A stretch of DNA of 64,000 nt from Desulfobacula toluolica Tol2 (lineage in GTDB: Bacteria > Desulfobacterota > Desulfobacteria > Desulfobacterales > Desulfobacteraceae): the NCBI RefSeq assembly GCF_000307105.1, contig NC_018645.1, positions 4,908,001 to 4,972,000 on the forward strand. The letters are read 5' to 3'. Shown here one piece after another: positions 5,776 to 31,020 of the stretch; within the stretch, counting starts at the first letter, position 1; each line of letters starts with the position of its first letter. The translations under genes were made by a program, and so were the position numbers. Under the pieces are notes generated by a model that saw only the letters and a program-made list of their open reading frames with translations, was not told the DNA's origin and searched no databases.

Positions 5776-5944
5776 GAAGCGGCAACTTTATACAAATGAT
5801 TTAGTGAACAGCTCTTGAACTCAGGCAAAAAACATTATTTTTTAATGCAAAAGCATGGTGTCTCTCTTTCCGATTTTAAATAATCGGAAATACCCCCCCT
5901 TTTTATTCTCTCCCAAATACTGTTTTGGATCTTTTTTAAAATCG

Positions 5945-6021
5945 CTCCTGTTTTTCAGGAGTAAAAAATTTAATAATCAGAATACAAGACTCCTGTTTTT
6001 CAGGAGCTTTGTGTTCTGATT
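5945..6021 (+). promoter_or_regulatory. Tandem palindromes, candidate enhancer (activator) sites, copy 1
   Basis: Two copies of the palindrome CTCCTGTTTTTCAGGAG occur at 5945-5961 and 5990-6006, 45 bp apart, joined by TAAAAAATTTAAT. The second sits inside a larger inverted repeat (5975-6021). The same arrangement recurs at 27138-27200 ahead of the second operon. Both lie about 90-100 bp upstream of a -24/-12 promoter, the usual place for binding sites of a sigma-54 activator. The alternative, RNA hairpins, is less likely because they precede the promoter. Confidence 0.6.
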
Positions 6022-6092
6022 GTAGTTATATTTTATCGCTATTCTTAAAAATAACTTAAAATATAAGGCGCTTACATCACAAACAATCACTT

Positions 6093-6108
6093 TGGCATAC
6101 TACTTGTA
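6093..6108 (+). promoter_or_regulatory. Sigma-54 (-24/-12) promoter, operon 1
   Basis: TGGCATA-N4-TTGTA, with the GG and the downstream GT separated by ten bases as required for sigma-54. It matches consensus except T for C in the -12 element. The first gene starts about 70 bp downstream. The palindromes 90-150 bp upstream fit an enhancer-dependent promoter. Confidence 0.6.
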
Positions 6109-6175
6109 AGAGTAAAGCCAAGACACATGTCATTTGAGAAAAATATGAAAACCAACTTAGATCTGAGGAGGCAAA

Positions 6176-6595
6176 TTGGAAACAAATAAAATTGATCACA
6201 TATGTATAGCAGTTAAAAATCTTGATGAAGCACGCAAGGTGTGGGAACCGGTTCTTGGAAAAACAAAACCAGACGATGAATATATTGATGAGCCGGAAAA
6301 AATTAAAGTTGCACGATACTGGGTCGGTGAAGTTGGTTTTGAACTTATGGAGTCCACAACACCGGATGGAGACGTGGCCAAATTTATCGAAAAAAGGGGC
6401 GAAGGGGTAATGCTCATAAGTTTTAATGTTGATAACACTAGAGAATCCATGGCTGAACTTAAAGAAAAAGATTATCCGTTTATTGGTGGCGCAAGGCCAT
6501 TTCGTGACTGTGAATTCTCCTTTATTCATCCGAAAAAAATGAACGGGGTATTGACTGAACTCATTGATTATAAATGGAAGGAATTTGAAAAATAG
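6176..6595 (+). CDS. VOC-fold protein, methylmalonyl-CoA epimerase-like
   Basis: 139 residues starting at TTG, preceded by GAGGAGG (6165-6171); there is no in-frame ATG nearby. It has the vicinal-oxygen-chelate pattern: His near residue 7 (DHICIAVKNL), a central Glu (GFELME), and a C-terminal Glu (LTELID), which are the usual metal ligands of methylmalonyl-CoA epimerase and glyoxalase-like enzymes. It is the first gene after the sigma-54 type promoter and lies 65 bp ahead of a hydantoinase-like amidohydrolase. An epimerase or racemase acting on the same pathway substrate is plausible. True methylmalonyl-CoA epimerase activity is not assured. Confidence 0.75.
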   Translation: METNKIDHICIAVKNLDEARKVWEPVLGKTKPDDEYIDEPEKIKVARYWVGEVGFELMESTTPDGDVAKFIEKRGEGVMLISFNVDNTRESMAELKEKDYPFIGGARPFRDCEFSFIHPKKMNGVLTELIDYKWKEFEK

Positions 6596-6660: not shown

Positions 6661-8013
6661 ATGTTGGATTTAATCATAAAGAATGGAAAAGTATTTATTC
6701 CTGAAAAAGGATTTCTTGATCTTGAAGTAGGAATAAAAGATGGAAAAATTGTGGCACTTGAAAATAATCTTTCAGATTCAAAAGAAGTTCTGGATGCCGC
6801 TGGAAACATTGTCATGCCGGGTGTGATTGATCCCCATATTCACCTTGGAATTTTCAACGATTTTGCCCATGAATGTGAGCATGAGACCAGAGCTGCCCTG
6901 GCCGGCGGCGTAACCACCTGTGGTGTGTTCATGGGCGGTGATCAGTCCTATCTGGGTCAGGTGGGAGAGCTGATTGATGTAATTGAGGCCAAGTCTTCCG
7001 TTGATCTGTTTATGCATCTGGCCATTTTTACAGAAGAGCAGATGTCTGAAATGAAGTCATATTACGAGAAATTTGGCATTACTTCTTTTAAATTCTACAT
7101 GGCAGGCGTTAAGGGCGTTTTCCCAAATGTCAGCGATGGATTTATTTATGAGGGATTTAAAAAAGTAGCAGAATTTGGTGATAAGGCGATCGCATGTGTT
7201 CATTGTGAAGATCAGTCCCTTATTGATGTTGCCTTTGATAAGGTATCTGCCCAAACACCTGAAGGAACACTTGTGGACTGGGCAAAAACAGGACCTGATA
7301 TGGCAGAAGAAGAGGCCATCATCCGTGCGTGTTATCTTGCTGAGAAGGCAGGAAATCGATTGTATATTGTTCATATCTCCACCAAGGATGGGGCCGATCG
7401 CCTGACAAAGATAAAAGCAAACGAGGGTGCAAGGGTTTTTGGTGAAACAACGTCAGCCTATCTTACCGTGAACAAACATGGCGAATTCGGATTAAAGGGC
7501 AAAATGCTTCCTCCTCTCAGAGACAAGTCTGATAATGACGGACTGTGGGATGCCGTAAAGAATGACACAATCGATTCCCTTGGAACAGATAATGTCAGTA
7601 TGACCCTGGAAGTAAAGCAGGAGGAAAACGGAATGCTGGGCGCAATGCCCGGTTACCCCATTCTTCAAACCCATTTTCCTGCAATGATCAACGAAGGATA
7701 CCACAACCGGGGTATTGATATTGAAACCATTATCACAAAAGCAACCATAAATCCTGCCAAGATTTTTGGCCTTTATCCTCAAAAAGGTGTCATAGCAGTG
7801 GGCAGCGATGCTGATATCGTTATTCTTGACCTTGACAATTCCAAGACTGTTGAGAGTAAAAATCTGTTTTCTTACGGTGATTTTTCTCTTTTTGAAGGAC
7901 AAACTATTAAAGGATGGCCAACAACTGTCGTAAAAAGCGGGAAGATTGCTTTCTCAAATGACGAAATCATGGTGGAACCGGGAAGCGGATCATTCTTAAA
8001 ACGGGAACTATAA
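6661..8013 (+). CDS. Dihydropyrimidinase / hydantoinase-like cyclic amidohydrolase
   Basis: 450 residues, full length for the family. Metal-centre residues are visible: His59 and His61 in DPHIH, the carbamylated Lys144 in SFKFYMAG, His181 (CVHCEDQ), His238 (VHIS), and Asp310 in LGTDN. The family hydrolyses cyclic amides such as dihydropyrimidines, hydantoins or allantoin. The region around Asp310 (TDNVS) differs from the usual SDH motif, so the substrate may differ. An AGGAGG site precedes the ATG at 6661. In the E. coli yqe/yge cluster a hydantoinase (hyuA) sits near xanthine dehydrogenase-type genes and yqeB, and related genes are also present here. That makes a role in anaerobic breakdown of N-heterocycles a reasonable inference. 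Confidence 0.85.
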   Translation: MLDLIIKNGKVFIPEKGFLDLEVGIKDGKIVALENNLSDSKEVLDAAGNIVMPGVIDPHIHLGIFNDFAHECEHETRAALAGGVTTCGVFMGGDQSYLGQVGELIDVIEAKSSVDLFMHLAIFTEEQMSEMKSYYEKFGITSFKFYMAGVKGVFPNVSDGFIYEGFKKVAEFGDKAIACVHCEDQSLIDVAFDKVSAQTPEGTLVDWAKTGPDMAEEEAIIRACYLAEKAGNRLYIVHISTKDGADRLTKIKANEGARVFGETTSAYLTVNKHGEFGLKGKMLPPLRDKSDNDGLWDAVKNDTIDSLGTDNVSMTLEVKQEENGMLGAMPGYPILQTHFPAMINEGYHNRGIDIETIITKATINPAKIFGLYPQKGVIAVGSDADIVILDLDNSKTVESKNLFSYGDFSLFEGQTIKGWPTTVVKSGKIAFSNDEIMVEPGSGSFLKREL

Positions 8014-8075
8014 GACTAATTGATTGATATATCTCAAAATAACAGACTGTGTGAAGCAGTTAACGAGGAGATGTG

Positions 8076-8648
8076 ATGTTTGAAATGCGTTTTCATGGAC
8101 GAGGGGGTCAAGGAGCTGTGATGGCATCCAAAATTTTGGCAAAAGCCCTCGTCGAAGAAGGTCATGTTGTTAAAGCGATTCCCTCATTCGGGTTTGAAAG
8201 GCGCGGTGCGCCGGTATCCGCCTTTCTGCGTTTCGGAGACAAGGAAATCAGACAGGTGACAAATATTTACAATCCGGATTGCATAGTGTGTCTTGATCCA
8301 ACCCTTTCCAAATCCGTGGATATTTTTGAAGGCATCAATGATAATGCCATATTTATTCAGGCAACAAAGAAAGATATATCTGAATTATCATTTCCAGATA
8401 CCCTTTCAAAAGTCGGCACATGTGATGCCTTCGGTCTTGCCATGGAGATCATCGGAAGGCCAATTACAAACACAATAATGCTTGGCGTGTTTGCAAAAAC
8501 CACCGGGCTTGTGTCTGTGGGTTCAATTAATAAAGCCATGGAATCCGTTGCTTTCAGGGATGCCGCCCTGAATAAAAATATTACCGCTGTAAAATTAGGG
8601 TATGAGAGAACCACTGTGCTTGAACTTAAAGGAAAGGAGATATCATGA
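8076..8648 (+). CDS. 2-oxoacid:ferredoxin oxidoreductase, gamma subunit
   Basis: 190 residues. The ATG at 8076 sits five bases after GAGGAG; a GTG at 8073 would be too close. The N-terminal FHGRGGQGAVMASKILAKAL and the SFGFERRGAPVSAF motif define the gamma domain of pyruvate/2-ketoisovalerate-type oxidoreductases. It is followed, with ATGA overlap, by delta and then alpha, with beta after an intervening gene. These enzymes oxidise 2-oxoacids with CoA to acyl-CoA, CO2 and reduced ferredoxin. The substrate (pyruvate, 2-oxoglutarate or other) cannot be decided from this subunit. Confidence 0.9.
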   Translation: MFEMRFHGRGGQGAVMASKILAKALVEEGHVVKAIPSFGFERRGAPVSAFLRFGDKEIRQVTNIYNPDCIVCLDPTLSKSVDIFEGINDNAIFIQATKKDISELSFPDTLSKVGTCDAFGLAMEIIGRPITNTIMLGVFAKTTGLVSVGSINKAMESVAFRDAALNKNITAVKLGYERTTVLELKGKEIS

Positions 8649-8938
8649 TTAAACAATCCACCCCCGCCTTTGACAGTTCAACGATTCCCAATGATTTGTG
8701 TCCCATTGCAACACATTTTGTGTTTCTTAAAACCGGTGACTGGAGGGCCATGCGCCCCATTCTCCTGCGGGAAAAATGTGTGAAGTGTGCCACCTGCTGG
8801 CTTTATTGCCCTACTCAGTGCATTTCTGAAAAAGCAACATGGTTTGAAGCAAATCTTGATATTTGCAAGGGATGCGGAATCTGTGCAGAGGAATGCCCCC
8901 ATAATGCAATCATAATGGAAGAGGAAACTGAAGTATGA
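8645..8938 (+). CDS. 2-oxoacid:ferredoxin oxidoreductase, delta (ferredoxin) subunit
   Basis: 97 residues with two [4Fe-4S] motifs, CVKCATCWLYC and CKGCGICAEEC, as in the PorD-type electron-transfer subunit. The N-terminal half (DWRAMRPIL) is also typical of this family. Its ATG overlaps the gamma stop and its stop overlaps the alpha start (ATGA both times), so translation is coupled. It carries electrons from the thiamine centre toward ferredoxin or the neighbouring Fe-S and flavin proteins. Confidence 0.9.
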   Translation: MIKQSTPAFDSSTIPNDLCPIATHFVFLKTGDWRAMRPILLREKCVKCATCWLYCPTQCISEKATWFEANLDICKGCGICAEECPHNAIIMEEETEV

Positions 8939-10131
8939 CCGAAAAAATAGTTTGTGACGGGAATGAAGCGGCTGCATGGGGTGTTGCCAAAGCCAAACCT
9001 GATATGGTCGCAGTATATCCTATAACTCCTCAATCTTCCCTTGCCGAGTATATTGCTCAGTTTGTGGCGGACGGGGTGATTGATGCTGATTTGATGGATG
9101 TAGAAGGAGAACACAGTGTTTTGTCGGTTCTCCAGGGAGCATGTCTTGCAGGGGCAAGGACCTATACGGCTACCTGTGGCCAGGGGCTTGCTTTTATGTT
9201 TGAGCCTTATTTTCGAACACCGCCTTTAAGGCTTCCCATTGTTATGTCCATTGTGACACGGGACGGCATTACCCCTCAATGTGTATGGGGAGGGCAACAG
9301 GATGCCATGACGGTAAAAGAAGTCGGTTGGATTCAAATGTATTGCGAAACAAACCAGGAAATTCTTGACACCATGATCCTGGCTTACAGGATCGCGGAAA
9401 ATCGAGATGTTATGTTGCCGGTGAATGTATGTCATGATGGAAATTATCAATCTTACGGCGTAGAGCAGGTTTTACTGCCGGATCAGGATATGGTGGATGG
9501 GTTTCTTGGCGAAAAAAATACAAACTGGCATGCTGCTCTTGATCCTGAAAAACCCATGGGAATTGATCCTTTGACAGGTGGTGCAGGCGGTGAGGGGCCT
9601 TCGCGTTTCGTAAGATACAGGAAAGGGTCCTGCAAGGGAATGCAAAATGCCCTTGATGTCATCACGAATGTCCATGAAGAATGGGGTGAACTCACAGGAC
9701 GACATTATGCACCTTTGGTTGAGGAATACAGATTAGACGATGCGGATTATGCAATCGTCACCATAGGCGGGATGACCGGAGCCGGCAAGGATGCTGTTGA
9801 TGAGATGCGCCTTGAAGGAGAGAATGTGGGTCTTATCAAAATCAAAACCTTTCGTCCCTTTCCCCAGGAAGCTTTATTAAAAGCTGTTTCCAAGGTTGCG
9901 GCCGTAGGTGTTGTGGATCGGTCTGTTAATTTTGGTTGGAATTCCGGCCCTGTTTATCAGGAAATCTTAGGGATTCTTTATCAAATGGAAAAAAAGATTC
10001 CAGCGGTCAGTTTTATTGGAGGTCTGGCAGGAGCCGATATTACCATCAACGATTTCAAAGACACCATTATGACAACGAAAAGGGCTTTAAATGGTGATTT
10101 GCCGAAATCAACAATCTGGATAAATGAATAG
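8935..10131 (+). CDS. 2-oxoacid:ferredoxin oxidoreductase, alpha subunit
   Basis: 398 residues. The N-terminal pyrimidine-binding domain shows GNEAAAWGVAKAKPDMVAVYPITPQS, quoted here only as the start of the domain, then DVEGEHSVLSVLQGA. The C-terminal part (VGLIKIKTFRPFP) is the usual domain II. It makes the thiamine-diphosphate site together with the beta subunit. The downstream beta gene is separated from it by an NAD/FAD oxidoreductase gene, an uncommon order. The start overlaps the delta stop. The family is certain; the oxoacid specificity is not. Confidence 0.9.
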   Translation: MTEKIVCDGNEAAAWGVAKAKPDMVAVYPITPQSSLAEYIAQFVADGVIDADLMDVEGEHSVLSVLQGACLAGARTYTATCGQGLAFMFEPYFRTPPLRLPIVMSIVTRDGITPQCVWGGQQDAMTVKEVGWIQMYCETNQEILDTMILAYRIAENRDVMLPVNVCHDGNYQSYGVEQVLLPDQDMVDGFLGEKNTNWHAALDPEKPMGIDPLTGGAGGEGPSRFVRYRKGSCKGMQNALDVITNVHEEWGELTGRHYAPLVEEYRLDDADYAIVTIGGMTGAGKDAVDEMRLEGENVGLIKIKTFRPFPQEALLKAVSKVAAVGVVDRSVNFGWNSGPVYQEILGILYQMEKKIPAVSFIGGLAGADITINDFKDTIMTTKRALNGDLPKSTIWINE

Positions 10132-10140
10132 GTGATTATC

Positions 10141-11397
10141 ATGCATACCAACTATCTTATTATTGGCGGAAGCCATGCAGGACTTTCCGCCATTGATGCC
10201 ATCAGACGATGCGACAGTGAAGCTGCTCTGACATTGGTGACAACGGAAAAAAGACCGCCTTATTCTCCAACTGCTTTACCATATATAATTTCCGGTAAAA
10301 CAGAACCGGCGAAGACGGATATCATACCATCTAACTACTTCAAAGACCTTGATGTTAATTATATAAACGGTGCTTCCGCAACTCAAATAGACACCCAAAT
10401 CAATCAGGTAAGGTTGAATAACGGGGGCACAATTGACTATGAAAAATTACTTGTTGCAACGGGTGCAAGTGCTTTGGTCCCGAACATTGCCGGAATTGAA
10501 GATGTTGAGTTCTCTTGTATCCGCACAATGGCGGATGCTGAAAAAATAAAAAAAGAGATGGCACAGGCCAAGTCCGCACTCATCATAGGGGCTGGTTTCA
10601 TCGGCATGCACGCTGCGGAGAACCTTGCAAATTCGGGCTTAAGCGTAACCGTTGTAGAAACCTTTGACTACATTATGCCGGCAAGTTTTGATATTGAATC
10701 GTCTGATCTCATCAGAAAGGCTTTTGTTGAAAAGGGCATTACCATACTCACAGGCAAACAAGTATCAAAGGTTTACAAAAGTGGCGATCAAACTGTTCTT
10801 TCACTTGCGGACGGAGATGAGATTTCCGGGGACATGCTTGTCATTGCAGCAGGCATTAAACCCAATACCGATTTTCTTGCAGATTCCGGAATTAACTGTG
10901 ATCATGGGATTGTTGTGGATGAAAGGATGCGTACTTGTGTTCCCAATGTGTGGGCAGCAGGTGATGTTGCTTGTGCCTCCGATTTTTTCTCTCCAATGAA
11001 AACCATCGGCGGAACAATTCCCTGCGCAACAGCGCAGGGAAAGATTGCAGGTATGGATATGTCGCAAGATTCCTATGTTAAGGATTATCCTGGAAATTTG
11101 AATATGAATACCTTTGGATTTTTCGGGAATTTTGCTTTTTCCATAGGAAATGTGGCAGACACATTTCCTGACAGCAAATTAGAATTTGAAATACAAACTG
11201 ATCCGGAAAAAAAGAGTTTTTGCAAATTTGTTTTTGACGGACCTGTTTTAACAGGGGTTTCCGCCATTAACAGGCGGCTTGATCCTGGCATTTTAAAGGA
11301 ATTAATCCTGCGTAAAACAGACCTTTCCACAAAAAAAGAAGACTTTATAAAAACTCCCCTTGAAACCGGAAGACAAGTGATGAGGGAATTGTTTTAA
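10141..11397 (+). CDS. FAD/NAD(P)-dependent oxidoreductase inserted between alpha and beta subunit genes
   Basis: 418 residues from the ATG at 10141, with AGGTGA six bases upstream; a GTG at 10132 is the alternative. Two dinucleotide-binding motifs are present: IIGGSHAGLSA near residue 7 for FAD and IIGAGFIGMHAA near 145 for NAD(P). The segment AAGIKPNTDFL precedes the second FAD motif ending in WAAGDVA. This is the ferredoxin/rubredoxin reductase and CoA-disulfide reductase-like superfamily. It lacks the redox-active CxxxxC pair of disulfide reductases. Its place inside the oxidoreductase operon suggests that it links 2-oxoacid oxidation to NAD(P), as described for some aromatic-degrading anaerobes. 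Confidence 0.82.
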   Translation: MHTNYLIIGGSHAGLSAIDAIRRCDSEAALTLVTTEKRPPYSPTALPYIISGKTEPAKTDIIPSNYFKDLDVNYINGASATQIDTQINQVRLNNGGTIDYEKLLVATGASALVPNIAGIEDVEFSCIRTMADAEKIKKEMAQAKSALIIGAGFIGMHAAENLANSGLSVTVVETFDYIMPASFDIESSDLIRKAFVEKGITILTGKQVSKVYKSGDQTVLSLADGDEISGDMLVIAAGIKPNTDFLADSGINCDHGIVVDERMRTCVPNVWAAGDVACASDFFSPMKTIGGTIPCATAQGKIAGMDMSQDSYVKDYPGNLNMNTFGFFGNFAFSIGNVADTFPDSKLEFEIQTDPEKKSFCKFVFDGPVLTGVSAINRRLDPGILKELILRKTDLSTKKEDFIKTPLETGRQVMRELF

Positions 11398-11424
11398 ACA
11401 ATTTAATAAAAAGGAGATACGGTT

Positions 11425-12744
11425 TTGGGGAAAAGTTACTCAACCATAGCTTTTGATCCGGATAAATGTGACGGATGTGATGACTGTGTGAATGCCTGCG
11501 CTTTGATCTATGATGAAGAGGGGTCCATTGAAAATTCACGCATTCAGCTTGCAAAAGATGAAAATAAAAAATTTGGACTGGCCTTGTGCCGCCAGTGTGC
11601 TGAACCTGAATGTGTTCAGAATTGTCCTGTGGGAGCGCTTTCCAAAGACCCGGATACAGGTGTTATTTCTTGCAATGACTCTTGTATCGGCTGTAAAATC
11701 TGCACGCTCAGCTGTGCTTATGCAGGCATTACGATCAATGCCATTACAAAAAGGGTCATGAAATGCGATCTTTGTGGCGGAGATCCTGCATGCACAAAGG
11801 CATGTGAAAAAGGCGCATTGAAATTTCTTAAAAACAATGAAATGTTCAAATCCTGGGGCGATAAAGAAGATCTTGTTGCCCCTGGCATTTCATCTTGTCT
11901 AGGGTGTAATACAGAGCTTGTTTTCAGGCATACCTTAAGAAAAGTCGGTTCAAACACCATACTTGCCATTCCTCCCGGATGTACTGCCGGAGTCGGGGCT
12001 GTCGGTGTTAATGGGGTTACGGCCACAAAGGTGCCGTCCTTTCATCCTCTGCTGACCAATACATCCTCAATGCTTGCGGGGATAAAAAGATATTATAACA
12101 GAATAGGACGGGATATAACCATGATGGCCTTTGCCGGAGACGGCGGAACCGCAGATGTCGGTTTCCAGTCTCTGTCCGGTGCTGCGGAACGCGGTGAACA
12201 GATGATTTATATCTGTATCGATAATGAAGGCTACATGAATACCGGTGTGCAAAGATCAAGCACAACACCTTATGGCGCATGGACAACCACTACGCCGGTC
12301 GGATCTGCGTTAAAAGGCAAAACCCGCGATGCCAAATATCTTCCTATCATTATGATGATGCATAATTGCGAGTATGTTGCAACGGCTTCGACATCTTTTA
12401 TGGATGATTATTACGAGAAGCTGGACAAGGCCTATGAGGCCTCAAAAAAAGGAATGGCATATCTGCATGTGTTTTCTCCATGTCCAACGGGTTGGCGGTT
12501 TCCGCCGGAAAAACTCATTGAGGTTGGAAGAAAGGCAGTCGAATCCAATATTGTGCCTTTATGGGAATATACAAATGCAACAAAAAAACTTGAGTTTACT
12601 CACCCTGTGGATGATCCGGTTTCGATAAAAGATTATCTTTTTCTGATTGGTAAATACAAGCATCTTGATGAAGCCCAGCTTGAATTTATTGAACAGAATA
12701 GAGACAGAAGAATCGAGATGCTTAAAAATATATCAAACTCATAA
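11425..12744 (+). CDS. 2-oxoacid:ferredoxin oxidoreductase beta subunit fused to a four-cluster ferredoxin domain
   Basis: 439 residues from a TTG start with AAGGAG eight bases upstream. Residues 1 to about 140 form a HycB/DmsB-like ferredoxin with four Cys clusters (CDGCDDCVNAC, CRQCAEPECVQNC, CNDSCIGCKICTLSC, CDLCGGDPACTKAC). The rest is a beta subunit with SSCLGCNTE and the thiamine-diphosphate signature GDGGTADVGFQSLSGAAERG followed by DNEGYMNTG. Normal beta subunits are about 300 residues and carry no such domain. The fusion gives the enzyme extra Fe-S relay capacity in addition to the separate delta subunit, perhaps to reach the NAD/FAD protein encoded just upstream. Confidence 0.88.
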   Translation: MGKSYSTIAFDPDKCDGCDDCVNACALIYDEEGSIENSRIQLAKDENKKFGLALCRQCAEPECVQNCPVGALSKDPDTGVISCNDSCIGCKICTLSCAYAGITINAITKRVMKCDLCGGDPACTKACEKGALKFLKNNEMFKSWGDKEDLVAPGISSCLGCNTELVFRHTLRKVGSNTILAIPPGCTAGVGAVGVNGVTATKVPSFHPLLTNTSSMLAGIKRYYNRIGRDITMMAFAGDGGTADVGFQSLSGAAERGEQMIYICIDNEGYMNTGVQRSSTTPYGAWTTTTPVGSALKGKTRDAKYLPIIMMMHNCEYVATASTSFMDDYYEKLDKAYEASKKGMAYLHVFSPCPTGWRFPPEKLIEVGRKAVESNIVPLWEYTNATKKLEFTHPVDDPVSIKDYLFLIGKYKHLDEAQLEFIEQNRDRRIEMLKNISNS

Positions 12745-12761: not shown

Positions 12762-15350
12762 ATGTATGAAAACGCTGTACAGAATTCTGTAAAACCCGGC
12801 AAATGGATTAATTCAACCTGTAAAATGTGCCTTCACTCATGCAGCATAAGAGTTCATGTCACCGATGACGGCGTGGTGAACAAGATTGAGGGAAATCCAA
12901 CAAACCCGAGCAATGAATGCGGACTTTGTCCAAAAGGCAATTCTGCGCTTATGAGGCTTTATGATCCTCAACGCATTAAAACCCCTATGAAACGAACCAA
13001 TCCGAGAAAAGGTCCGGATGATGATCCTGGATGGGTACCTATTTCATGGGACGAAGCCTTGGATATTGTCGGCAAGGAGCTGAAGAAAACCTTTGATGAT
13101 GATCCCAGAAAATTGCTGCCGGCAATTAATGATTTTCACAAACTTTATTTGTGGGGATGGCCTGCTGCCTTTGGCGGAAATAACAATTATTTTTCGGTTG
13201 TGGGAACCTTATGTGGTGGCGGTTATCATCCCATGAACGGTTTTATCCACTCTACCTTTGCCGCAGGGAATGACTCTGATTATTGCAATTACTGGATCAA
13301 TAACGGTGGTTGCGACGGTTTTTCTTCCCATCTCCATGTGGCAGGTGCGGCACGCCATATGGCCAGAGCCCGTGCCAGGGGCATGAAACTGGTCTCCGTA
13401 GACCCGAGACTATCCACATCCGCTGCAAAATCAGATGAGTGGATTCCCATCAGGCCGGCAACAGACAGGCATTTTGCACTGGGCCTGTGTTATGTGATGA
13501 TTTCTGAAAACCTCTATGATGCCAAATTTTTAAAAAAAGACACCAATGCGGTTTATCTGGTGGGACCGGACGGCTTTTTTGTAAGGAATAAAGATAAAAA
13601 ACCATATGTGTGGGATTCCGTTGAAAATAAAGCAAAAACTTATGATGATAAAACCATTAAAGACTATGCCCTTGAAGGAGAATACGAGGTTGAGGGCGTA
13701 AAAGCATCTCCTGCCTTTCAGATATTTAAGAATCATATAAAGAACTGCACCCCGGACGAGGTCTCTCAGATCACCACGATTCCGGCAAAGGATATCCAGC
13801 GCATCGCAAGGGAATTTGCCAAAGCAGCCTCTATCGGGTCTAAAATAGAGATTGATGGAAAAGAACTGCCGCTGAGACCTGCCGGTTATAATTATTATAG
13901 GGGAGCCCAGGGACATAAAAGCGGAACCATGAGCAACCATGCATATAAACTGGTGAATTTTCTGGTGGGAAGCATTGATGCACCCGGTGGCCATGTTGGT
14001 TTTACTCTGGATGATGTTATGATTGACAGAGGACATATCTGGGAAGGAGAAGGCGGACAGATCAAAACCACTCCCCATCAGCTTGGTCCTGGAGTGCCCT
14101 TTGCCTATCCGCCAAATACCGCACATTTAATGGATTATTTCCCCGTTGGAGTTCATACCGGCCATCTGATCGCTGAAACTTTTTTTGACCCTAAAAAATG
14201 GGGAATGGATTTTCAACCGGACACTATGCTGATTTGTCATTCCAACCCATTGTGGAACATGAACGGGCCCCAGGATAAATATTTTGCGATCATGCGAAGC
14301 ATGCGGTTTATAGTTGCCATAGATATTCTGCTCAATGAAAGTACTGTGTGGGCGGATGTGGTTCTTCCAACCCTTGATAACCTTGAACGCTGGAACATGA
14401 CGATGATCGAACCGACCGTTACGGAAGGACCTTGTCTGACACAGCCGATTATCAAACCGCTGTATGATGTAAAGAGTGAAGAGGAAATTTTCAACGAAAT
14501 TTCAGAAAGAGTCGGCATCCTTGATCAATGGAATGAAGTTCAAAATTTTGCAAATATGTTTTTTGAAAAACCTGAACTTATGCTCAAGCCCGGGGTGAAA
14601 TATTCGGATAAGGATATTGCTGAAAGAAAAGGCAAATTGTGGGACAACAAAGACCTTGAGTGGTTTAAACAAAAAGGTCATGCAGTCACAAAGAGACAGC
14701 CGGATAAATTCTACCGTCCATGGGAAGGTCAGAGAATTCATTTTTATCTTGAAGATGTTCTTAAAGAAAAGAAACAGCTTCAGGAAAAAATGAAAAAAGC
14801 AAAGGTTCCCTTTTACGATATCTGGCAATGGGATGATTACCAGGGAGTTCCAACTGATGTTTTGGATCCCATTCACAAAGAAGCAGCTGAATTTGATATG
14901 TATGCCATCAGTTTTAAAGACGTCCAGATAAATTTCGGCGAAAGTCTAAGTATCCCATGGATTTCTGATATTGTGCGCAAAGATCCTGTTCACATGGGAA
15001 TTTTGATCAACACCAAAACCGCTGAAAAGCGGGGGATCGGCAATGGGGATCTGATGAAGGTCACCTCTCCTTATGGCACCATTATGGGGCTTGCCAGATT
15101 AACAGAAGGGGTTCACCATGAAACAATTGCTGTTTCCAACGCATTGACACGATGGACCGGCTACCATGCCGTGGTAAAAGCCGGTGGCGGACATTTTAAC
15201 AAACTTCTTCCGGCAAACCTTGAAAACACATGCGCATGCAGCGGACAAATGGAAGCGGCCGCAAAGGTAAAGGTGGAGTTTTTCAGGAAGAATCCCAATG
15301 ATGGACAAGTCGTTGAAAGTGAATTTTCAAAATATCGTTATGAAAAATGA
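12762..15350 (+). CDS. DMSO-reductase-family molybdopterin oxidoreductase, catalytic subunit
   Basis: 862 residues. The N-terminal [4Fe-4S] motif is Cys20-x2-Cys23-x3-Cys27-x25-Cys53, followed by GLCPKG. The likely metal ligand is Cys151 in GTLCGGGYH. The C-terminal dinucleotide-binding domain (GNGDLMKVTSPYG, then a conserved NALTRWTG) is intact. There is no twin-arginine signal, so the enzyme should stay in the cytoplasm. Genes for a four-cluster Fe-S subunit and an NrfD-like membrane subunit follow, giving a PsrABC/DmsABC-like complex. The substrate is unknown; sulfur compounds and hydroxylation or hydration reactions are all possible in this family. No in-frame UGA (selenocysteine) is needed. 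Confidence 0.87.
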   Translation: MYENAVQNSVKPGKWINSTCKMCLHSCSIRVHVTDDGVVNKIEGNPTNPSNECGLCPKGNSALMRLYDPQRIKTPMKRTNPRKGPDDDPGWVPISWDEALDIVGKELKKTFDDDPRKLLPAINDFHKLYLWGWPAAFGGNNNYFSVVGTLCGGGYHPMNGFIHSTFAAGNDSDYCNYWINNGGCDGFSSHLHVAGAARHMARARARGMKLVSVDPRLSTSAAKSDEWIPIRPATDRHFALGLCYVMISENLYDAKFLKKDTNAVYLVGPDGFFVRNKDKKPYVWDSVENKAKTYDDKTIKDYALEGEYEVEGVKASPAFQIFKNHIKNCTPDEVSQITTIPAKDIQRIAREFAKAASIGSKIEIDGKELPLRPAGYNYYRGAQGHKSGTMSNHAYKLVNFLVGSIDAPGGHVGFTLDDVMIDRGHIWEGEGGQIKTTPHQLGPGVPFAYPPNTAHLMDYFPVGVHTGHLIAETFFDPKKWGMDFQPDTMLICHSNPLWNMNGPQDKYFAIMRSMRFIVAIDILLNESTVWADVVLPTLDNLERWNMTMIEPTVTEGPCLTQPIIKPLYDVKSEEEIFNEISERVGILDQWNEVQNFANMFFEKPELMLKPGVKYSDKDIAERKGKLWDNKDLEWFKQKGHAVTKRQPDKFYRPWEGQRIHFYLEDVLKEKKQLQEKMKKAKVPFYDIWQWDDYQGVPTDVLDPIHKEAAEFDMYAISFKDVQINFGESLSIPWISDIVRKDPVHMGILINTKTAEKRGIGNGDLMKVTSPYGTIMGLARLTEGVHHETIAVSNALTRWTGYHAVVKAGGGHFNKLLPANLENTCACSGQMEAAAKVKVEFFRKNPNDGQVVESEFSKYRYEK

Positions 15351-15362
15351 AGGAGGTGACAT

Positions 15363-15980
15363 ATGACTGTAAAATGGGGAATGGTATTGGATTTAAAACG
15401 ATGCATTGGATGTAATGCCTGTACAGTAGCCTGTAAACAGGAGAACAGTGTTCCAGCCGGCATCAATTGGACGGAAACCCTGAGTGAAGAGATAGGCACA
15501 TATCCCAACGTGACACGGGCCTATATTCCCACCACCTGCAACCATTGTGAAGACGCCCCTTGCGCCAGGGTATGTCCCACCGGGGCAACCTATATTACAG
15601 ATGACGGAATCGTGCTGGTGGACGATAATAAATGCATAGGGTGCGGTGCCTGTATAACGGCTTGCCCGTATAAAAAAAGAGCGAAACTTGCTAAAGAACC
15701 GTTTGAAAAAGGACTCTATACCGCCGGGGAAATTACGCCTTTTGAAGTTCAGGGTTATACACGATTTACCGTTGGTACGGCTGTAAAATGCACCTTCTGC
15801 CATGAAAGGGTGAACCAGGGGCTTGATCCGGCCTGCGTTGTTACATGCCCGACAGAGGCACGGATTTTTGGTGATCTTAATGACCCTGAAAGTAAACCGC
15901 GCAAGCTGATTCAGGCCAGAAAGGGTTATCAAGCGTTGTCAGAGCTGAATACCAAACCAAAAGTTTTTTATGTGGATTAA
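15363..15980 (+). CDS. Four-cluster ferredoxin subunit (DmsB/PsrB type)
   Basis: 205 residues, with a strong AGGAGGTGA site before the ATG. Four Cys groups typical of the electron-transfer subunit of molybdopterin oxidoreductases are seen: CIGCNACTVAC, CNHCEDAPCARVC, CIGCGACITAC, and CTFCHERVNQGLDPACVVTC. It should connect the catalytic subunit upstream to the membrane protein downstream. The lack of a signal peptide agrees with a cytoplasm-facing complex. Confidence 0.9.
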   Translation: MTVKWGMVLDLKRCIGCNACTVACKQENSVPAGINWTETLSEEIGTYPNVTRAYIPTTCNHCEDAPCARVCPTGATYITDDGIVLVDDNKCIGCGACITACPYKKRAKLAKEPFEKGLYTAGEITPFEVQGYTRFTVGTAVKCTFCHERVNQGLDPACVVTCPTEARIFGDLNDPESKPRKLIQARKGYQALSELNTKPKVFYVD

Positions 15981-16005
15981 CAGGGAAACTAAGCAGGAGA
16001 AAATT

Positions 16006-16887
16006 ATGAGTTCAAGAACGTATGATATCGTGGGGGACGATTTTAGAGTAGGATATAGAAAGCAGAACGCATGGGGTTGGAAAATAGCCCTCGCATTTTT
16101 CTTTGGTGATGTGGGAGCAGGAACTTTCTTTGTTTCGGCATTTTATGATTACATGCCGGGTCTGATTTTTGGTTGGATTCTCACCACTTTTTTTAAACCA
16201 ACAGCGCTTTTCATGCATTTAGGACAACCGAAAAGGTTCTGGCGAGCCATTACAAATCTGCGCACTGCTTGGATCAGCCGAGGTGTTCTGGGCGCGATTC
16301 TTTTCACGGGGTTTGGATTCTTTCATATGATAAATCTGAAATGGGCTGTTTTCGGCTCTTTTGCAGGAGGCCTTGTGTTCTTTCTGGCCATGCTGGGTTG
16401 TTTTATCGTGATGATTTATCTGGGATATGTGTTGTCCCATTCTCCTTCCATTCCGCTTTGGAATAGCGGTTTAATGCCGGTGATATGTCTTGTGTATGGA
16501 CTTATGGGCGGGGTAACCGTGACGATCCTTTTTGGTGGCAACTCCCTTGATCCCAGTGCATTGCAAATGCTGAAAACAATTGAGTTGATTCTCATTGGAA
16601 TTACCGCTGTAAGCATTGTAAGCATGCTTCATGGTGCAGCGTATCAAAGCAGCACCGGCATGGCAACCATTCTGCAATTACTTTTTGGAGAATATGCAAA
16701 ATGGTTCTTGGGGTACGTTGTGCTGGTAGGTATTATCGGTGCAGGACTTTTGGCATTAACCGGTTCCATATCGGTTTTTGTGCTGCTCCTTGTGGCTGTC
16801 ATGGAGTTGATCGGAGATTTTGGACTTAAGATGGTATTGTTTAAATCGGCTCTATATTCTCCGCCGCTTACTCATTCCATGGTTTAA
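16006..16887 (+). CDS. NrfD/PsrC-like membrane subunit
   Basis: 293 residues from the ATG at 16006, chosen for the GCAGGAGA site just upstream; an ATG at 15970 would overlap the previous gene. It is strongly hydrophobic with about eight predicted helices starting near residue 20. Segments such as FFGDVGAGTFFVSAF and LHLGQPKRFWRA-like text (MHLGQPKRFWRAITN) match NrfD/PsrC proteins. It should anchor the complex and exchange electrons with the quinone pool, completing a catalytic/Fe-S/membrane trio. A hairpin lies downstream. Confidence 0.87.
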   Translation: MSSRTYDIVGDDFRVGYRKQNAWGWKIALAFFFGDVGAGTFFVSAFYDYMPGLIFGWILTTFFKPTALFMHLGQPKRFWRAITNLRTAWISRGVLGAILFTGFGFFHMINLKWAVFGSFAGGLVFFLAMLGCFIVMIYLGYVLSHSPSIPLWNSGLMPVICLVYGLMGGVTVTILFGGNSLDPSALQMLKTIELILIGITAVSIVSMLHGAAYQSSTGMATILQLLFGEYAKWFLGYVVLVGIIGAGLLALTGSISVFVLLLVAVMELIGDFGLKMVLFKSALYSPPLTHSMV

Positions 16888-17044: not shown

Positions 17045-17722
17045 ATGTCTCTTCGAAAAAATTTTGAAACCCTTTTAAATGAATCGGCCATAATACATGG
17101 ACATTTATGTTCAGGTCAGGTGATCGGCGTTCGCATGGCCATACTCGGGTGTCGCCTGATTGGGCTGGATGATCCCCGGTCCCATACTCAAATAAAAAAG
17201 CTCATTGTCTACCTTGAAATGGATCGGTGCGCAGGGGATGCCGTGGCCCATGTAACAGGCGTAAAGCTGGGCAGGCGGAGTTTGAAATTTATGAATTACG
17301 GAATTATGGCAGCCACATTTCTCAACCTTGAAACCCAGAAAGCCTTCCGGATCATATCCACAGAAGAATCAAGAGATCTTGCACAATTTTATGCGCCGGA
17401 AATTGAAGGAAAAGCAGCCCAGCAACTTGCGGCGTACAAGCGCATGCCGGACTATGTTCTGTTCAGGGTTCAGGAGGTAAATACCTTTCTTAAAGATTAC
17501 GACATGCCCGGCCCGACCCGCAGTAAAACCATATGCAGCCGGTGCGGCCAGGTGGTAAGGGATCATCGCGAGGTAATGATTGACAATATGCCTGTCTGCC
17601 GACCATGCACGGAAAAGGTCTATTTTTCAGATCCCCATGAAATATCAATGGGAGATATGGATTGGGCCCCGGTAAACAAGAACACTGTTTTAGACACCCA
17701 TATGATGGAAAACCAAAATTAA
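17045..17722 (+). CDS. FmdE family protein
   Basis: 225 residues with the FmdE motif HGHLCSGQ (His18-Gly-His20-x-Cys22) and Glu-Met-Asp-Arg-Cys-Ala-Gly-Asp-Ala further on. A C-terminal zinc ribbon is present (CSRCGQ ... CRPC, about residues 160-180). FmdE was first seen in operons of molybdenum formylmethanofuran dehydrogenase and is often found beside molybdenum enzymes in bacteria. Its precise role is not established. Placement between the DMSO-reductase-type complex and the xanthine-dehydrogenase-type genes fits a molybdenum-related role. Its last 21 bp (17705-17725) recur at 27723-27743. Confidence 0.85.
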   Translation: MSLRKNFETLLNESAIIHGHLCSGQVIGVRMAILGCRLIGLDDPRSHTQIKKLIVYLEMDRCAGDAVAHVTGVKLGRRSLKFMNYGIMAATFLNLETQKAFRIISTEESRDLAQFYAPEIEGKAAQQLAAYKRMPDYVLFRVQEVNTFLKDYDMPGPTRSKTICSRCGQVVRDHREVMIDNMPVCRPCTEKVYFSDPHEISMGDMDWAPVNKNTVLDTHMMENQN

Positions 17723-17986: not shown

Positions 17987-18847
17987 GTGAGTAGCAGAAT
18001 TTTACCAAAATTTGAATTGTTCATGCCGGAAAGTATCGAGCAGGTTGTTGATTGTCTTGGCAAGCATGGCAATAACGCTGCCGTTATGGCAGGCGGAACC
18101 GACTTGATGGTTCGTATGAAATCCGGGTTTTCCCCGGAGTATGTTGTCAGCCTTTCCAATGTGCCGGGGCTTGACCATGTTATATATGATGAAGATAAGG
18201 GATTGACCATCGGAGCGATGGCAACCTTAAATCAGGTGCTTGAATCCCAGGATGTTAAAGACAACTATCCGGCTCTCCATAAATCAGCCTATGAAAATGG
18301 AACGGAGCAGACACGTAATGTTGCCACTGTTGTTGGAAATATTTTAAATGCCTCTCCGGCAGGGGATTGTGCATGTGCGATCCTTGCATTAGGAGGATAT
18401 GTTGTCCTGCATGGTCCTGATGGCAGTCGTCAGGTTAATATTGACGATTTCTGGATTAATTATCGTGAAACGGAAAAGAAAACTGATGAATTTGCAGTAG
18501 AAGTTGTTATCCATCCCTCGAAAAACAGTAAATCTTCTTTCTCTGCTTTAACCAGAACTAAAAAAGATCTGGCAAAAATAAATGCGGCAGCTGCCATTAC
18601 AATGGAAAAAAACATCTGCTCCAAGGCCCGCCTGGCAATGGGGGCCGTTGGCCCGACCCATATCCGCCTCAAAAAATGTGAAGCCTTGTTGGAAGGGCAT
18701 GAAATTAATGACGACATCCTTGAAAGGATTGTTGAACTTGCCCCAACAGAGATAAATCCCATTGATGATGTTCGTTCCTCTGCAGAATACAGGCGCAGCG
18801 TTTCAGGTGTTTTAATGAAAAAAGTCATTAAAGAAATTTTGAGTTAA
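17987..18847 (+). CDS. Xanthine dehydrogenase-family FAD-binding subunit
   Basis: 286 residues starting at GTG, with an AGGAGG site. The FAD-binding signature AVMAGGTDLMVRMKSG lies near residue 36 and TVVGNILNASPAGDCA near 110, as in CoxM/XdhB proteins. A C-terminal CO-dehydrogenase flavoprotein domain follows. It passes electrons from the [2Fe-2S] subunit to NAD or another acceptor. The next two genes supply the [2Fe-2S] and molybdenum subunits, completing an alpha-beta-gamma hydroxylase. Confidence 0.9.
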   Translation: MSSRILPKFELFMPESIEQVVDCLGKHGNNAAVMAGGTDLMVRMKSGFSPEYVVSLSNVPGLDHVIYDEDKGLTIGAMATLNQVLESQDVKDNYPALHKSAYENGTEQTRNVATVVGNILNASPAGDCACAILALGGYVVLHGPDGSRQVNIDDFWINYRETEKKTDEFAVEVVIHPSKNSKSSFSALTRTKKDLAKINAAAAITMEKNICSKARLAMGAVGPTHIRLKKCEALLEGHEINDDILERIVELAPTEINPIDDVRSSAEYRRSVSGVLMKKVIKEILS

Positions 18848-18871
18848 ACTCAAGAAAAAGGGATGTATGAA

Positions 18872-19345
18872 ATGAAAACATGTGATATTACGCTTTTTGT
18901 CAATAAAGAACAATACAGCATGACCATTCCTGTGAACAGAACTCTTCTCCAGGTACTCAGGGATGATTTGGAGCTTATGGGAACAAAATATGGTTGCGGA
19001 ACAGGAGAGTGCGGTTCCTGTACAGTCCTTATGGACGATAAACCTATTCTATCCTGCCTGACACTGGCTGCGGTTATGCACAAAAAAAATATAACCACCA
19101 TCGAAGGCCTTGAGGAGGATGGTGTTTTGCATCCTGTCCAAGAGGCTTTTGTTGAAAAAAATGCGGTTCAATGCGGATTCTGCACACCAGGCATGATTAT
19201 GAAATCCACGGCTTTGCTGGCAAAAAACTCAAACCCCACAGAGGCTGAAATCAGAAGTCATCTGGAAGGAAATATTTGTCGCTGCACAGGCTATGTGAAA
19301 ATCATTGATGCTGTTCAATATGCCAGCAAACAAATGGACAAGTAA
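18872..19345 (+). CDS. Xanthine dehydrogenase-family [2Fe-2S] subunit
   Basis: 157 residues from the ATG at 18872, which has AAAAGGGA at a better distance than the ATG at 18863. The plant-type cluster motif Cys42-x4-Cys47-x2-Cys50-x11-Cys62 is followed by the second motif CGFCTPG ... CRCTG, the standard XdhC/CoxS layout. It carries electrons from the molybdenum site to the FAD subunit. The size is normal for the family. Confidence 0.92.
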   Translation: MKTCDITLFVNKEQYSMTIPVNRTLLQVLRDDLELMGTKYGCGTGECGSCTVLMDDKPILSCLTLAAVMHKKNITTIEGLEEDGVLHPVQEAFVEKNAVQCGFCTPGMIMKSTALLAKNSNPTEAEIRSHLEGNICRCTGYVKIIDAVQYASKQMDK

Positions 19346-19359
19346 AAGGAGGATTTCCC

Positions 19360-21768
19360 ATGGCTTCTATTATAGGCAAACGAATTCCAAAAATTGATGC
19401 AAAAGCAAAAGTGACGGGCCGGGCGGCTTATGCGGGTGATCTTAAATTCCCGGGAATGCTGTATGGAAAAGTTGTTCGGTGTATGAAGTATGCCCATGCC
19501 AGGGTGTTAAATCTTGATATATCTGAAGCGCAAAAAGTTCCCGGGGTTGTGAAGATTCTCGGTCCGGATGATGTGACGCAAAAGAAATATTCAAACTGGG
19601 TGATTGATCTCTTTTACCCGAAAAACTTTGCTGAGCTTGTAGGTGATCTTGATGATCAAAACATATTTACAAACCATGTGAGACACCAGGGGGATGCCAT
19701 TTGCGGAATCATCGCAAGAACCGAAGAGCTTGCGGAAGCTGCGGCAAAACTGATCAAGGTTGAATATGAAGAACTTCCTGTTTATCACACGGCAACACAG
19801 GCAAAAAATGAGGAAGCTTTTCAGATTGATTCCCAAAAACCGGGCAACTTGGCATTTGAGCTGCCTGAACAGGTTTTTCCCGGCAATACTTATGGCTGGG
19901 GCGATGCGGAAGAATTGATGAAAGAGGCCGATCTGGTGGTTGAAGATACTTTTTATGTACCAAAGGTAAAGCAATGCCAGATGGAAAACCACACCTATAT
20001 TTCACTTTATGACGATGAAGGCAGAATGAACTGCTGGTCCTCCACCCAGATGCCCAAGCCGGTCCAAAAAAAGATTTCAGACCTGTTTGAACTTCCAATG
20101 AATAAGGTTAAGGTTAATCAGACCATTATTGGCGGTGCTTTTGGGGTGAAGCTGGGGATGATCATGGAACCTGAGGCCTGTGCCATGGCAATGAGTGTGC
20201 CCGGAAAGTATGTTAAGGTCTCTGCCTTAAGGGAAGAAGACTGGCTAATGTCCGAAAGCCGCCATCCGGGAGAATACTCAATTAAGATCGGACTGAAAAA
20301 TGATGGCACTCCAATTGCCTGCACGGCAAATTTTTTAACCAATGGGGGCGGGTATTACAGCCATTCTTCCGGAGCGCCTGCCGTGGCCGGAACCTGGATG
20401 ATCGGAATGTACAAATTTGCGGCCTGTAATTTCAAATGCCAGCGATACTATACCAACCAGATGAACTGCGGTGCATTCAGGGGGTATGGAAATCCCCAGA
20501 CTAATTTTGTTTTGGAACAGATCATTGACCGGGCCTTGAAAAAACTGGATATTGATCCTGTGGAATGGAGGCGAGAATGGCATAAAACCACCGGTGATGA
20601 CGGATGGATGCTTGGGGTTCCCTATTCTTCTTGTGCCCTTGATGCCTGTCTCGACCAGGGTGCTGAATCGTTTGGCTGGTTCGAAAAACGCAATAAATAC
20701 AAGACACAGACCGGGACAAAAAGAAGAGGGATCGGGGTTGCAGTCATGAACCATACAAGCGGTGCCTTTCCGTTTCTCCATGAACACACCACATGTACTG
20801 TTAAGCTTAATGAAGATGCTTCCGCAGAAATCATAACATCGGCATCTGACCTGGGCACAGGTGCCCACACAGCCTTACAGCAAATCGCAGCAGAAACACT
20901 GGGGTTTGACTTAGAGAAGGTACATATGAAGGTTGGAGACTCGGATGCTGCAGGCTATGATATCGGCGCCCATGCCAGCCGTACTATTTATGTGGCAGGC
21001 CTTGCCGTACTAAAGGCGTGTAATGATGCAAAAGATCAAATCCTTGAAAAGGCAGCCATCAGCCTTGAAACTGATAAGGAGGCTCTTGAAATAATTGATC
21101 AAAAGGTCTGTGTTAAGAAAGATCCGAATACCTTCATCTCAGTGGAGCAAATATGCTATGAAGGTGTTAACGCTTTTCTTGACGGTGCTACAGGTCAAAG
21201 AATAGGTACCCCGGGACAAATCCAGGGATATTCAAGCCATTATGCCGAACATAATTCTCCCCCGTTTGCAGCGTGTTTTGTTGAAGTTGAAGTGGACACG
21301 CAAACAGGCGAAGTGGCAGTGATTGAAGTTGTAAGTTCTCATGATATAGGCAAGGCCATCCATCCGCCATCGGTTGAAGGCCAACTGGAAGGCGGTGTAC
21401 ACCAGGGCCTTGGAATGGTTCTTACTGAAGAGACCTATTATAATGAAAAAGGGCTTTGCGTGAATAATAATTTCACTGATTATAAAATGTTCGGACCTTC
21501 AGATATGCCTGTCTGCAAATCCATACTGGTTGAAGAACCTGATCCTATAGGGCCATACGGCGCAAAAAGTTGCGGCGAATCCGGACTTGTAGCTCCTACA
21601 GGTGCGACTGCAAACGCAGTTTATAATGCCATCGGCATCCAGTTCACCGGCGCACCCATTACGGCGGAAAAAATACTGAAAGCTATTAAGGAATTCGGCA
21701 TTGATTCCGATACCATCCTTCCATTCGGATATGGTTGCGAGGACAATGATATCCCGAATTTAAAATAA
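19360..21768 (+). CDS. Xanthine dehydrogenase-family molybdenum-binding subunit
   Basis: 802 residues. Molybdopterin-binding segments are present: GAFGVKLGM (about residue 258), AFRGYGNPQTNF (about 374), and the catalytic Glu740 in KSCGESGL. It hydroxylates an aromatic N-heterocycle or aldehyde using water as oxygen donor. There is no CoxL-type signature (AYRCSFR), which argues against CO dehydrogenase. A YqeB-like maturation gene follows, and this pairing is typical of hydroxylases that carry a labile selenium atom. Purine, nicotinate or similar substrates are possible, but none is proven by sequence. Confidence 0.9.
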   Translation: MASIIGKRIPKIDAKAKVTGRAAYAGDLKFPGMLYGKVVRCMKYAHARVLNLDISEAQKVPGVVKILGPDDVTQKKYSNWVIDLFYPKNFAELVGDLDDQNIFTNHVRHQGDAICGIIARTEELAEAAAKLIKVEYEELPVYHTATQAKNEEAFQIDSQKPGNLAFELPEQVFPGNTYGWGDAEELMKEADLVVEDTFYVPKVKQCQMENHTYISLYDDEGRMNCWSSTQMPKPVQKKISDLFELPMNKVKVNQTIIGGAFGVKLGMIMEPEACAMAMSVPGKYVKVSALREEDWLMSESRHPGEYSIKIGLKNDGTPIACTANFLTNGGGYYSHSSGAPAVAGTWMIGMYKFAACNFKCQRYYTNQMNCGAFRGYGNPQTNFVLEQIIDRALKKLDIDPVEWRREWHKTTGDDGWMLGVPYSSCALDACLDQGAESFGWFEKRNKYKTQTGTKRRGIGVAVMNHTSGAFPFLHEHTTCTVKLNEDASAEIITSASDLGTGAHTALQQIAAETLGFDLEKVHMKVGDSDAAGYDIGAHASRTIYVAGLAVLKACNDAKDQILEKAAISLETDKEALEIIDQKVCVKKDPNTFISVEQICYEGVNAFLDGATGQRIGTPGQIQGYSSHYAEHNSPPFAACFVEVEVDTQTGEVAVIEVVSSHDIGKAIHPPSVEGQLEGGVHQGLGMVLTEETYYNEKGLCVNNNFTDYKMFGPSDMPVCKSILVEEPDPIGPYGAKSCGESGLVAPTGATANAVYNAIGIQFTGAPITAEKILKAIKEFGIDSDTILPFGYGCEDNDIPNLK

Positions 21769-23876: not shown

Positions 23877-23886
23877 GAGGGTAAAA

Positions 23887-25785: not shown

Positions 25786-25856
25786 GCGAAGTCAGACCGG
25801 ACCAGGTAATCCCTTTTGATGATAACGATATATCAAATTGGAGACCAAAACAATGA
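25686..25856 (+). other. Candidate -1 frameshift site and alternative chemoreceptor tail
   Basis: The heptamer A-AAA-AAC sits exactly in the X-XXY-YYZ phase of frame 0 (GAA AAA AAC). Slipping back one base continues through 54 further codons to a TGA at 25854-25856, which overlaps the moeA ATG (ATGA). The tail contains [18 protein letters not shown], which resembles normal chemoreceptor C-termini. A lost A in a run of eight, or a base-calling error, would give the same picture. Confidence 0.6.
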
Positions 25857-27137: not shown

Positions 27138-27212
27138 CTCCTGTTTTTCAGGAATAAAAAATTTAATGTTTATGGACACAAAGCTCCTGTTTTTCAGGAA
27201 TTTTGTGTCCTG
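27138..27212 (+). promoter_or_regulatory. Tandem palindromes, candidate enhancer (activator) sites, copy 2
   Basis: CTCCTGTTTTTCAGGAA occurs at 27138-27154 and 27184-27200, 46 bp apart, with the identical linker start TAAAAAATTTAAT. The second copy sits in a larger inverted repeat (GGACACAAA/TTTGTGTCC). The layout matches the element at 5945-6021. It lies about 90 bp upstream of a -24/-12 promoter. Confidence 0.62.
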
Positions 27213-31004: not shown

Positions 31005-31020
31005 TTAGAAGGATAATGAA

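Follow-up and report, generated by a model that had tools for sequence, protein, structure and literature searches.

The window, that is, the whole stretch of 64,000 nucleotides analysed here, comprises bases 4908001-4972000 of the Desulfobacula toluolica Tol2 genome, a single contig of 5,197,905 bp, and carries two operons that are each preceded by a pair of short palindromes and a -24/-12 promoter (Table 1). In operon 1, an epimerase-like gene and a cyclic amidase gene are followed by five phenylglyoxylate dehydrogenase-like genes, three of whose products score above the NCBIfam curated cut-offs and two below, and then by further oxidoreductase, cofactor and chemoreceptor genes. As gaps of 157, 264 and 178 bp interrupt this operon, it may hold further promoters. 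The second operon opens with a gene for a 129-aa protein and joins cofactor-maturation genes to an aldehyde oxidoreductase gene. Two more palindrome pairs lie outside the window, one before a bamB gene and the other, here called copy 3, 2.6 kb left of the window. The genome also has a second bamB copy, upstream of which the genome-wide relaxed pair search found no palindrome pair; directly before it, a remnant of an epimerase-like gene can be recognized by eye (L002:1980-2040).

Table 1. Features of the locus. Positions refer to the window unless a locus (L001, L002) or the genome is named.
Feature	Position	Strand	Basis or remark
Histidine kinase, 1283 aa	genome 4900002-4903853; L002:5002-8853		PAS, HisKA, HATPase, receiver domains
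NtrC-type response regulator, 475 aa	genome 4903858-4905285; L002:8858-10285		receiver and sigma-54 AAA+ domains
bamB (tungsten benzoyl-CoA-reductase type)	L001:12447-14474	-	solved benzoyl-CoA reductase 4z3w, 5.5e-229
Second bamB copy	L002:2074-4101		82% identical to first
bamB proximal dyad	L001 about 14612-14644		
Copy 3 proximal dyad	L002 about 10420-10454		
Decayed duplicate of regulator 3' end, HTH partly lost, reading ...FLMQKHGVSLSDFK-stop	5791-5883	+	blastn
Copy 1 distal palindrome (UAS a), CTCCTGTTTTTCAGGAG	5945-5961	.	sequence reading, pattern searches
Extended dyad, copy 1 proximal palindrome	5975-6021	.	DNA fold z -7.4
Copy 1 proximal palindrome (UAS b), CTCCTGTTTTTCAGGAG	5990-6006	.	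sequence reading, pattern searches
Copy 1 sigma-54-type promoter, TGGCATACTACTTGTA	6093-6108	+	TTGTA replaces TTGCA
Methylmalonyl-CoA epimerase/glyoxalase-like gene, first of operon 1	6176-6595	+	G062 relative 88%
Hydantoinase/dihydropyrimidinase-like cyclic amidase	6661-8013	+	84% in G062
Five phenylglyoxylate dehydrogenase PadEFGHI-like genes	8073-12744	+	profile matches
Molybdopterin oxidoreductase, Fe-S and NrfD-type membrane subunits	12762-16887	+	NrfD PF03916; PadBCD-like by position only
FmdE-domain protein	17045-17722	+	80% in G062
Xanthine-dehydrogenase-type three-subunit Mo hydroxylase	17987-21768	+	no subunit at curated cut-off
YqeB, selenium-dependent Mo cofactor protein	21869-22681	+	
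Molybdenum cofactor synthesis domain protein	22860-23876	+	
Methyl-accepting chemotaxis protein	23815-25785	+	
MoeA-like protein	25838-27067	+	
Copy 2 distal palindrome (UAS a), CTCCTGTTTTTCAGGAA	27138-27154	.	sequence reading, pattern searches
Extended dyad, copy 2 proximal palindrome	27174-27210	.	DNA fold z -5.1
Copy 2 proximal palindrome (UAS b), CTCCTGTTTTTCAGGAA	27184-27200	.	sequence reading, pattern searches
Copy 2 sigma-54-type promoter, TGGCAAGCCTTTTGCA	27272-27287	+	sequence reading
129-aa protein, first gene after copy 2	27334-27723	+	no Pfam family above cut-off
MoCF-domain protein, FdhD, MobB	27765-30272	+	MoCF, FdhD relatives in G062 gene run
Fe-S protein, aldehyde ferredoxin oxidoreductase (31021-32991), Fe-S protein	30357-34651	+	

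Elsewhere in the window, an exact tandem duplication with a unit of 3646 bp (50606-54253 and 54252-57899) carries an FMN oxidoreductase gene and part of recC, leaving a shortened recC-like copy (54237-56318) beside the full gene (49166-52672); it is either very recent or an effect of assembly. Two divergent cobalamin riboswitches are also found (60344-60529 on the minus strand and 60743-60919 on the plus strand), the former upstream of a TonB-dependent receptor gene (58070-60118).

The earlier note on this DNA had placed a palindrome pair, a linker and a -24/-12 promoter before each of the two operons, and all of these elements are present where it put them. At copy 1 the palindromes read as it had written them; at copy 2, however, each has one arm mismatch. 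The linker TAAAAAATTTAAT lies immediately 3' of the copy 1 distal palindrome and is identical in copy 2. Downstream of all four genome pairs stands TGGCA-N6-TTG[C/T][A/T], with the features of a sigma-54 promoter, namely GG at -24, GC at -12 and a fixed spacing (TGGCA-N6-TTGCA/T). Three of five promoters, those of copy 2, of the first bamB and of bamB in the related genome G019, have the exact consensus, and the -12 element is weakened to TTGTA in copies 1 and 3, which share all 16 bases of TGGCATACTACTTGTA. The two palindromes of a pair are spaced 44 bp from centre to centre at bamB, 45 bp at copies 3 and 1 and 46 bp at copy 2. From the centre of the proximal palindrome to the GG at -24 the distances are 93, 98, 97 and 82 bp for bamB, copy 3, copy 1 and copy 2, respectively, and from the distal centre 142 bp (copy 1) and 128 bp (copy 2).

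Within the window, the single motif with a free spacer and up to two mismatches is not remarkable, and as evidence it is weak: it has five matches, with a shuffle mean of 1.56 and 3 of 100 shuffles reaching five. Genome-wide, the exact 15-mer TCCTGTTTTTCAGGA, which includes the T5 spacer, occurs at eight places, all between 4894621 and 4935199, and the T tract is always on the same strand as the gene that lies downstream; about 0.01 would be expected in random sequence. CTCCTG-N5-CAGGAG, with both half-sites exact and any spacer bases, has five genome matches, all at 4894620-4914006, and the 15-mer with up to two mismatches gives at least 118 strand matches versus 30 for a control. The relaxed pair TCCTGN5CA-N30-60-CCTGN5CAGG is found at exactly four places, before bamB (minus strand) and at copies 3, 1 and 2, together spanning 41 kb, and the control pattern at none. 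The earlier note had held that pairs lying at random or at gene ends would count against its proposal; this genome-wide search did not refute it, each of the four being followed by a sigma-54-type promoter. Distant regulon members were set aside, since this relaxed search returned only the four places in the island. An extra site accompanied by a half-site (L001:14887-14950), some 410-480 bp upstream of the start codon of bamB, stands outside the pair count. An RNA element was also considered and rejected, since transcription is proposed to start downstream of the sites and an Rfam scan of the two window copies found no family. The exact palindrome string has no match in the PMC papers searched.

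A PAS/hybrid histidine kinase and an NtrC-type response regulator are encoded at genome bases 4900002-4905285, and the stop codon of the regulator gene is 98 bp upstream of pair 3. The activator had been expected to lie outside the window, which is the case, the candidate ending 2.7 kb left of its start. The related proposal of one activator for both operons is supported by the shared putative enhancer pairs and sigma-54 promoters; it had called that activator unknown, but a candidate adjoins pair 3. In the regulator, PF00072 and PF00158 score far above cut-off and no Pfam helix-turn-helix does so. The GAFTGA loop, which contacts sigma-54, reads GVFTGA here, and the four closest relatives aligned have GVFTGA or GIFTGA; among solved structures, NtrC-family activators are nearest in sequence. 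An AlphaFold model of the 80% identical G019 orthologue, built on a 10-sequence alignment (mean pLDDT 79.9, pTM 0.54), has a C-terminal, HTH-like arrangement of one long and two short helices at residues 414-466, and its best Foldseek matches are NtrX, NtrC4 and NtrC1, with a whole-chain TM of about 0.5. A long helix plus two short ones is the pattern of the NtrC/Fis-type DNA-binding domain. The regulator thus has the features of an NtrC-type (group I) enhancer-binding protein, its DNA-binding domain being predicted in the model of the G019 orthologue only. The genome encodes five further regulators of 45-49% identity (E 1e-120 or better) and probably still more of the kind; Desulfobacteria are described, in a passage of PMC12316311, as rich in sigma-54 activators. 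Because several regulators are so similar, it is from gene position that we infer which of them binds. A search of a plasmid collection with the regulator (E 1e-100) found no match, and a plasmid origin was set aside on this ground.

Copies 1 and 3 are not independent, as both descend from one duplication. That is, window positions 5791-6284 are a decayed duplicate of L002:10112-10729, with blastn identities of 82% over L002:10112-10166 and 73% from 10238 on. Since the duplicate includes the 3' end of the regulator gene, the regulator probably once stood directly before the copy 1 operon. In a comparison of the two copies, with features selected in advance, 49 of 50 bases are conserved in the sites and promoter, as against 160 of 241 in the remaining non-coding columns (Fisher P 4e-7). 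The copy 3 promoter now apparently reads into a TauE-type permease gene.

The strict form of the pair occurs in two of 86 family genomes, the home genome and G019, and these same two are the only ones of 84 family genomes searched to encode the regulator at 80% identity or more; G058 and G059 follow at 66-67%, and the others reach at most 53% among the matches listed for these 84. On the G019 contig (JAKSAX010000431.1, L010) the order is regulator (80%), pair, TGGCAGGTTTTTTGCT and bamB (91%). Among 58 regulator loci from named genomes (L007-L064), L010 alone has an exact site, and four others (L007, L012, L014, L041) have a one-mismatch site. In a sample of 389 genomes of the order, from which G019 is absent, the strict pair is found in the home genome and in G201, and the regulator at E 1e-165 or better in four genomes, G201 not among them; the G201 match (L065) consists of repeated TCCTG-N5-CAGGA-like units with other, AAA-rich spacers, and looks like a short repeat array. 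At L007 and L008, whose regulators are 65-67% identical, one-mismatch sites are paired 42-43 bp apart, an arrangement absent from 100 shuffled versions of each locus; TGGCATCATCCTTGCT lies some 220 bp beyond the pair and, in L008, a chemoreceptor gene comes next. After the regulator gene both have a single TCCGG-N5-CAGGA, followed in L008 by a sigma-54 match. No pair was found in L009, L014 and G356 (regulators 47-55%) or in L070-L075 (47-52%), so the motif appears confined to close orthologues; in G356 and L009 other palindromes follow the regulator. The palindrome is not a general feature of bamB operons either, a proposal rejected because 28 of 30 bamB loci, taken from 49 matches, lack a site at up to one mismatch in flanks of up to 1.5 kb.

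Other parts of the island can be followed in these relatives. At position 21526 of the G019 contig, after a chemoreceptor gene, CTCCTGTTTTTCAAGAG and then TAAAAATCCAACATTT look like a second distal site, which was not counted as a pair because the contig ends there; a chemoreceptor search without low-complexity filter gave a weak match in G019. The kinase matches this contig from residue 369 onwards (65%); as its N-terminal 368 residues are unmatched, the G019 counterpart has a different sensor part or none, and the sensed signal may differ. Homologues of the 129-aa protein (E 9e-10 to 2e-8) come immediately after the regulator gene in L009 and in G356, where a CheW-domain gene follows, and near it in L070. 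Besides the window gene, members of this family of about 130 aa lie at L009 4464-4826, L112 3101-3496 (minus strand) and L070 1129-1476; two members were scanned and gave no Pfam family above cut-off.

A contrasting case is G062, whose regulator relatives do not exceed 47% identity. Here genes for the epimerase, amidase, PadE, PadI, PadB, NrfD, FmdE, MoCF, FdhD and bamB form one run at 68-89% identity, in which bamB shares 88% identity with the second bamB of the home genome, and this single run indicates that genes split over several home operons belong together in G062. The 40 kb examined hold no pair, even with two mismatches per site; four single one-mismatch sites lie elsewhere, and neither of two sigma-54 matches in the region precedes the operon. 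Upstream of the operon are instead a GntR/FCD regulator gene and, by reading, a TTGACA-type, sigma-70-like sequence. The same operon under apparently unrelated control would amount to regulatory rewiring. These 40 kb gave no match to the xanthine-dehydrogenase-type enzyme, YqeB, the chemoreceptor, MoeA or the 129-aa protein, and the aldehyde oxidoreductase query matched only bamB, and weakly; owing to this absence from the run, the pathway membership of all six is less certain.

On this evidence, the palindrome pairs are very probably enhancers (UAS) for the island's own NtrC-type regulator, acting with its kinase, and at least four promoters would respond. Specifically, a signal, probably an aromatic substrate or intermediate, would lead the kinase to phosphorylate the regulator, whose dimers would bind the two CTCCTG-T5-CAGGAG sites 44-46 bp apart and assemble into an AAA+ hexamer. 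By DNA looping, the hexamer would then reach and open the -24/-12 promoter, which lies about 80-100 bp downstream; this would take place at bamB, copy 3, copy 1 (epimerase, amidase and Pad-type genes) and copy 2 (cofactor-maturation and aldehyde oxidoreductase genes). A local two-component/sigma-54 regulon is well supported as real by all the sequence evidence. The type of control is ordinary; the island is a new and well-delimited example of it.

It is unlikely that the sites are sigma-54 enhancers of another NtrC-type regulator, with the adjacent one a bystander. Six regulators at E 1e-120 or better, the adjacent one included, do offer candidates, but the only family genomes with the strict pair are the two that encode an orthologue of the adjacent regulator at 80% or more, in both directly after its stop codon, and G062, with the same operon and lacking this regulator, has no pair in the 40 kb examined. 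That the repeats are functionless relics of local duplication seems hardly credible: copies 1 and 3 are duplicates and bamB is likewise duplicated (82% identity), yet the sites and promoter have been kept while their surroundings decayed, and G019 has the identical arrangement.

We regard as very unlikely another reading, in which the palindromes are hairpin terminators or insulators ahead of each operon, be it exclusively or with the proximal site serving both purposes. In all four home copies the proximal palindromes lie inside long hairpin-capable dyads (DNA fold z -5.1 to -9.2), with 33 of 40 flank positions paired, or 36 of 50 with G019, whose dyad is weaker (3/10 flank pairs, z -3.6); the null mean is 21.9 and 0 of 20000 shuffles reach 36. 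In copies 1 and 2, a simple terminator scan marks the proximal palindrome as terminator-like on either strand. Upstream of the G019 kinase gene, at L010:3898, these half-sites recur with a different spacer; with a T run behind them, they resemble an ordinary terminator and were dropped as a candidate site. The five distal sites, however, pair only 1-5 of 10 flank bases (of two folded, copy 1 gave z -3.8 and copy 2 z -0.5), and a strong T tail is seen by eye in the bamB copy only. Termination would not account for the tandem arrangement at 44-46 bp, the identity of the half-sites, their restriction to 41 kb or the presence of a promoter 80-100 bp downstream. The proximal dyad may additionally serve as an insulator or terminator, beside the enhancer role favoured here.

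The name molybdenum/tungsten regulon, given in the earlier note, does not suit the targets, which look aromatic-catabolic: benzoyl-CoA-reductase- and phenylglyoxylate-dehydrogenase-type genes, a cyclic amidase and a chemoreceptor would belong to an anaerobic pathway of Mo/W-using enzymes in a host that is probably a sulfate reducer. The Mo/W cofactor genes probably ride along because the pathway enzymes need them. From the Pad-type genes, phenylacetate was a first guess for the substrate; PMC5109826 states, however, that D. multivorans does not need its Pad genes for phenylacetate, and cites the same for D. toluolica. An anoxic oxindole-isatin-anthranilate route is listed in PMC6221969, and the breakdown of indole or isatin would agree with the combination of a cyclic amidase, an adjoining 2-oxoacid oxidoreductase and a distinct BamB. 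Indole would be converted to isatin, which the cyclic amidase would open to 2-aminophenylglyoxylate; the Pad-type oxidoreductase would yield 2-aminobenzoyl-CoA, to be dearomatised by a dedicated BamB subtype. A new anaerobic N-heterocyclic or amino-aromatic route (e.g. from indole) under this switch, with the proximal site a combined enhancer and hairpin element, is a speculative and, on balance, doubtful extension of the proposal.

To our knowledge, few binding sites have been defined for clusters of the tungsten benzoyl-CoA-reductase type, and the island offers a testable set of regulator, sites and targets for one of them. In the proposed switch, bamB, the Pad-type operon, cofactor-maturation genes and chemotaxis would be joined. 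NtrC-type (group I) systems are alike in having a receiver-AAA+ protein with a C-terminal DNA-binding-like region and paired palindromes 80-150 bp before a -24/-12 promoter. NtrC sites also have the 6-5-6 layout of the palindromes described here; unlike them, the latter have the half-site CTCCTG, a T5 spacer in constant orientation (in the home genome) and a long proximal dyad. Two-component control of anaerobic benzoyl-CoA metabolism is a trait shared with BamVW, whose control concerns class II bam genes; the targets here, in contrast, include Pad-type, amidase and cofactor genes. This system of Geobacter metallireducens, named in PMC4424350 and PMC11497800, is likened here by description. 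In the sigma-54 regulons of Desulfovibrio vulgaris reconstructed by comparative genomics, passages of PMC4641369 likewise place the activator gene beside its target operon and a palindrome upstream of the sigma-54 promoter, although regulators, motifs and pathways differ. Finally, in the catabolic modules of Desulfobacteraceae portrayed in PMC11887813, sigma-54-type regulators also lie in or beside the pathway cluster; those are described there as mostly single-component, whereas a two-component pair is found here.
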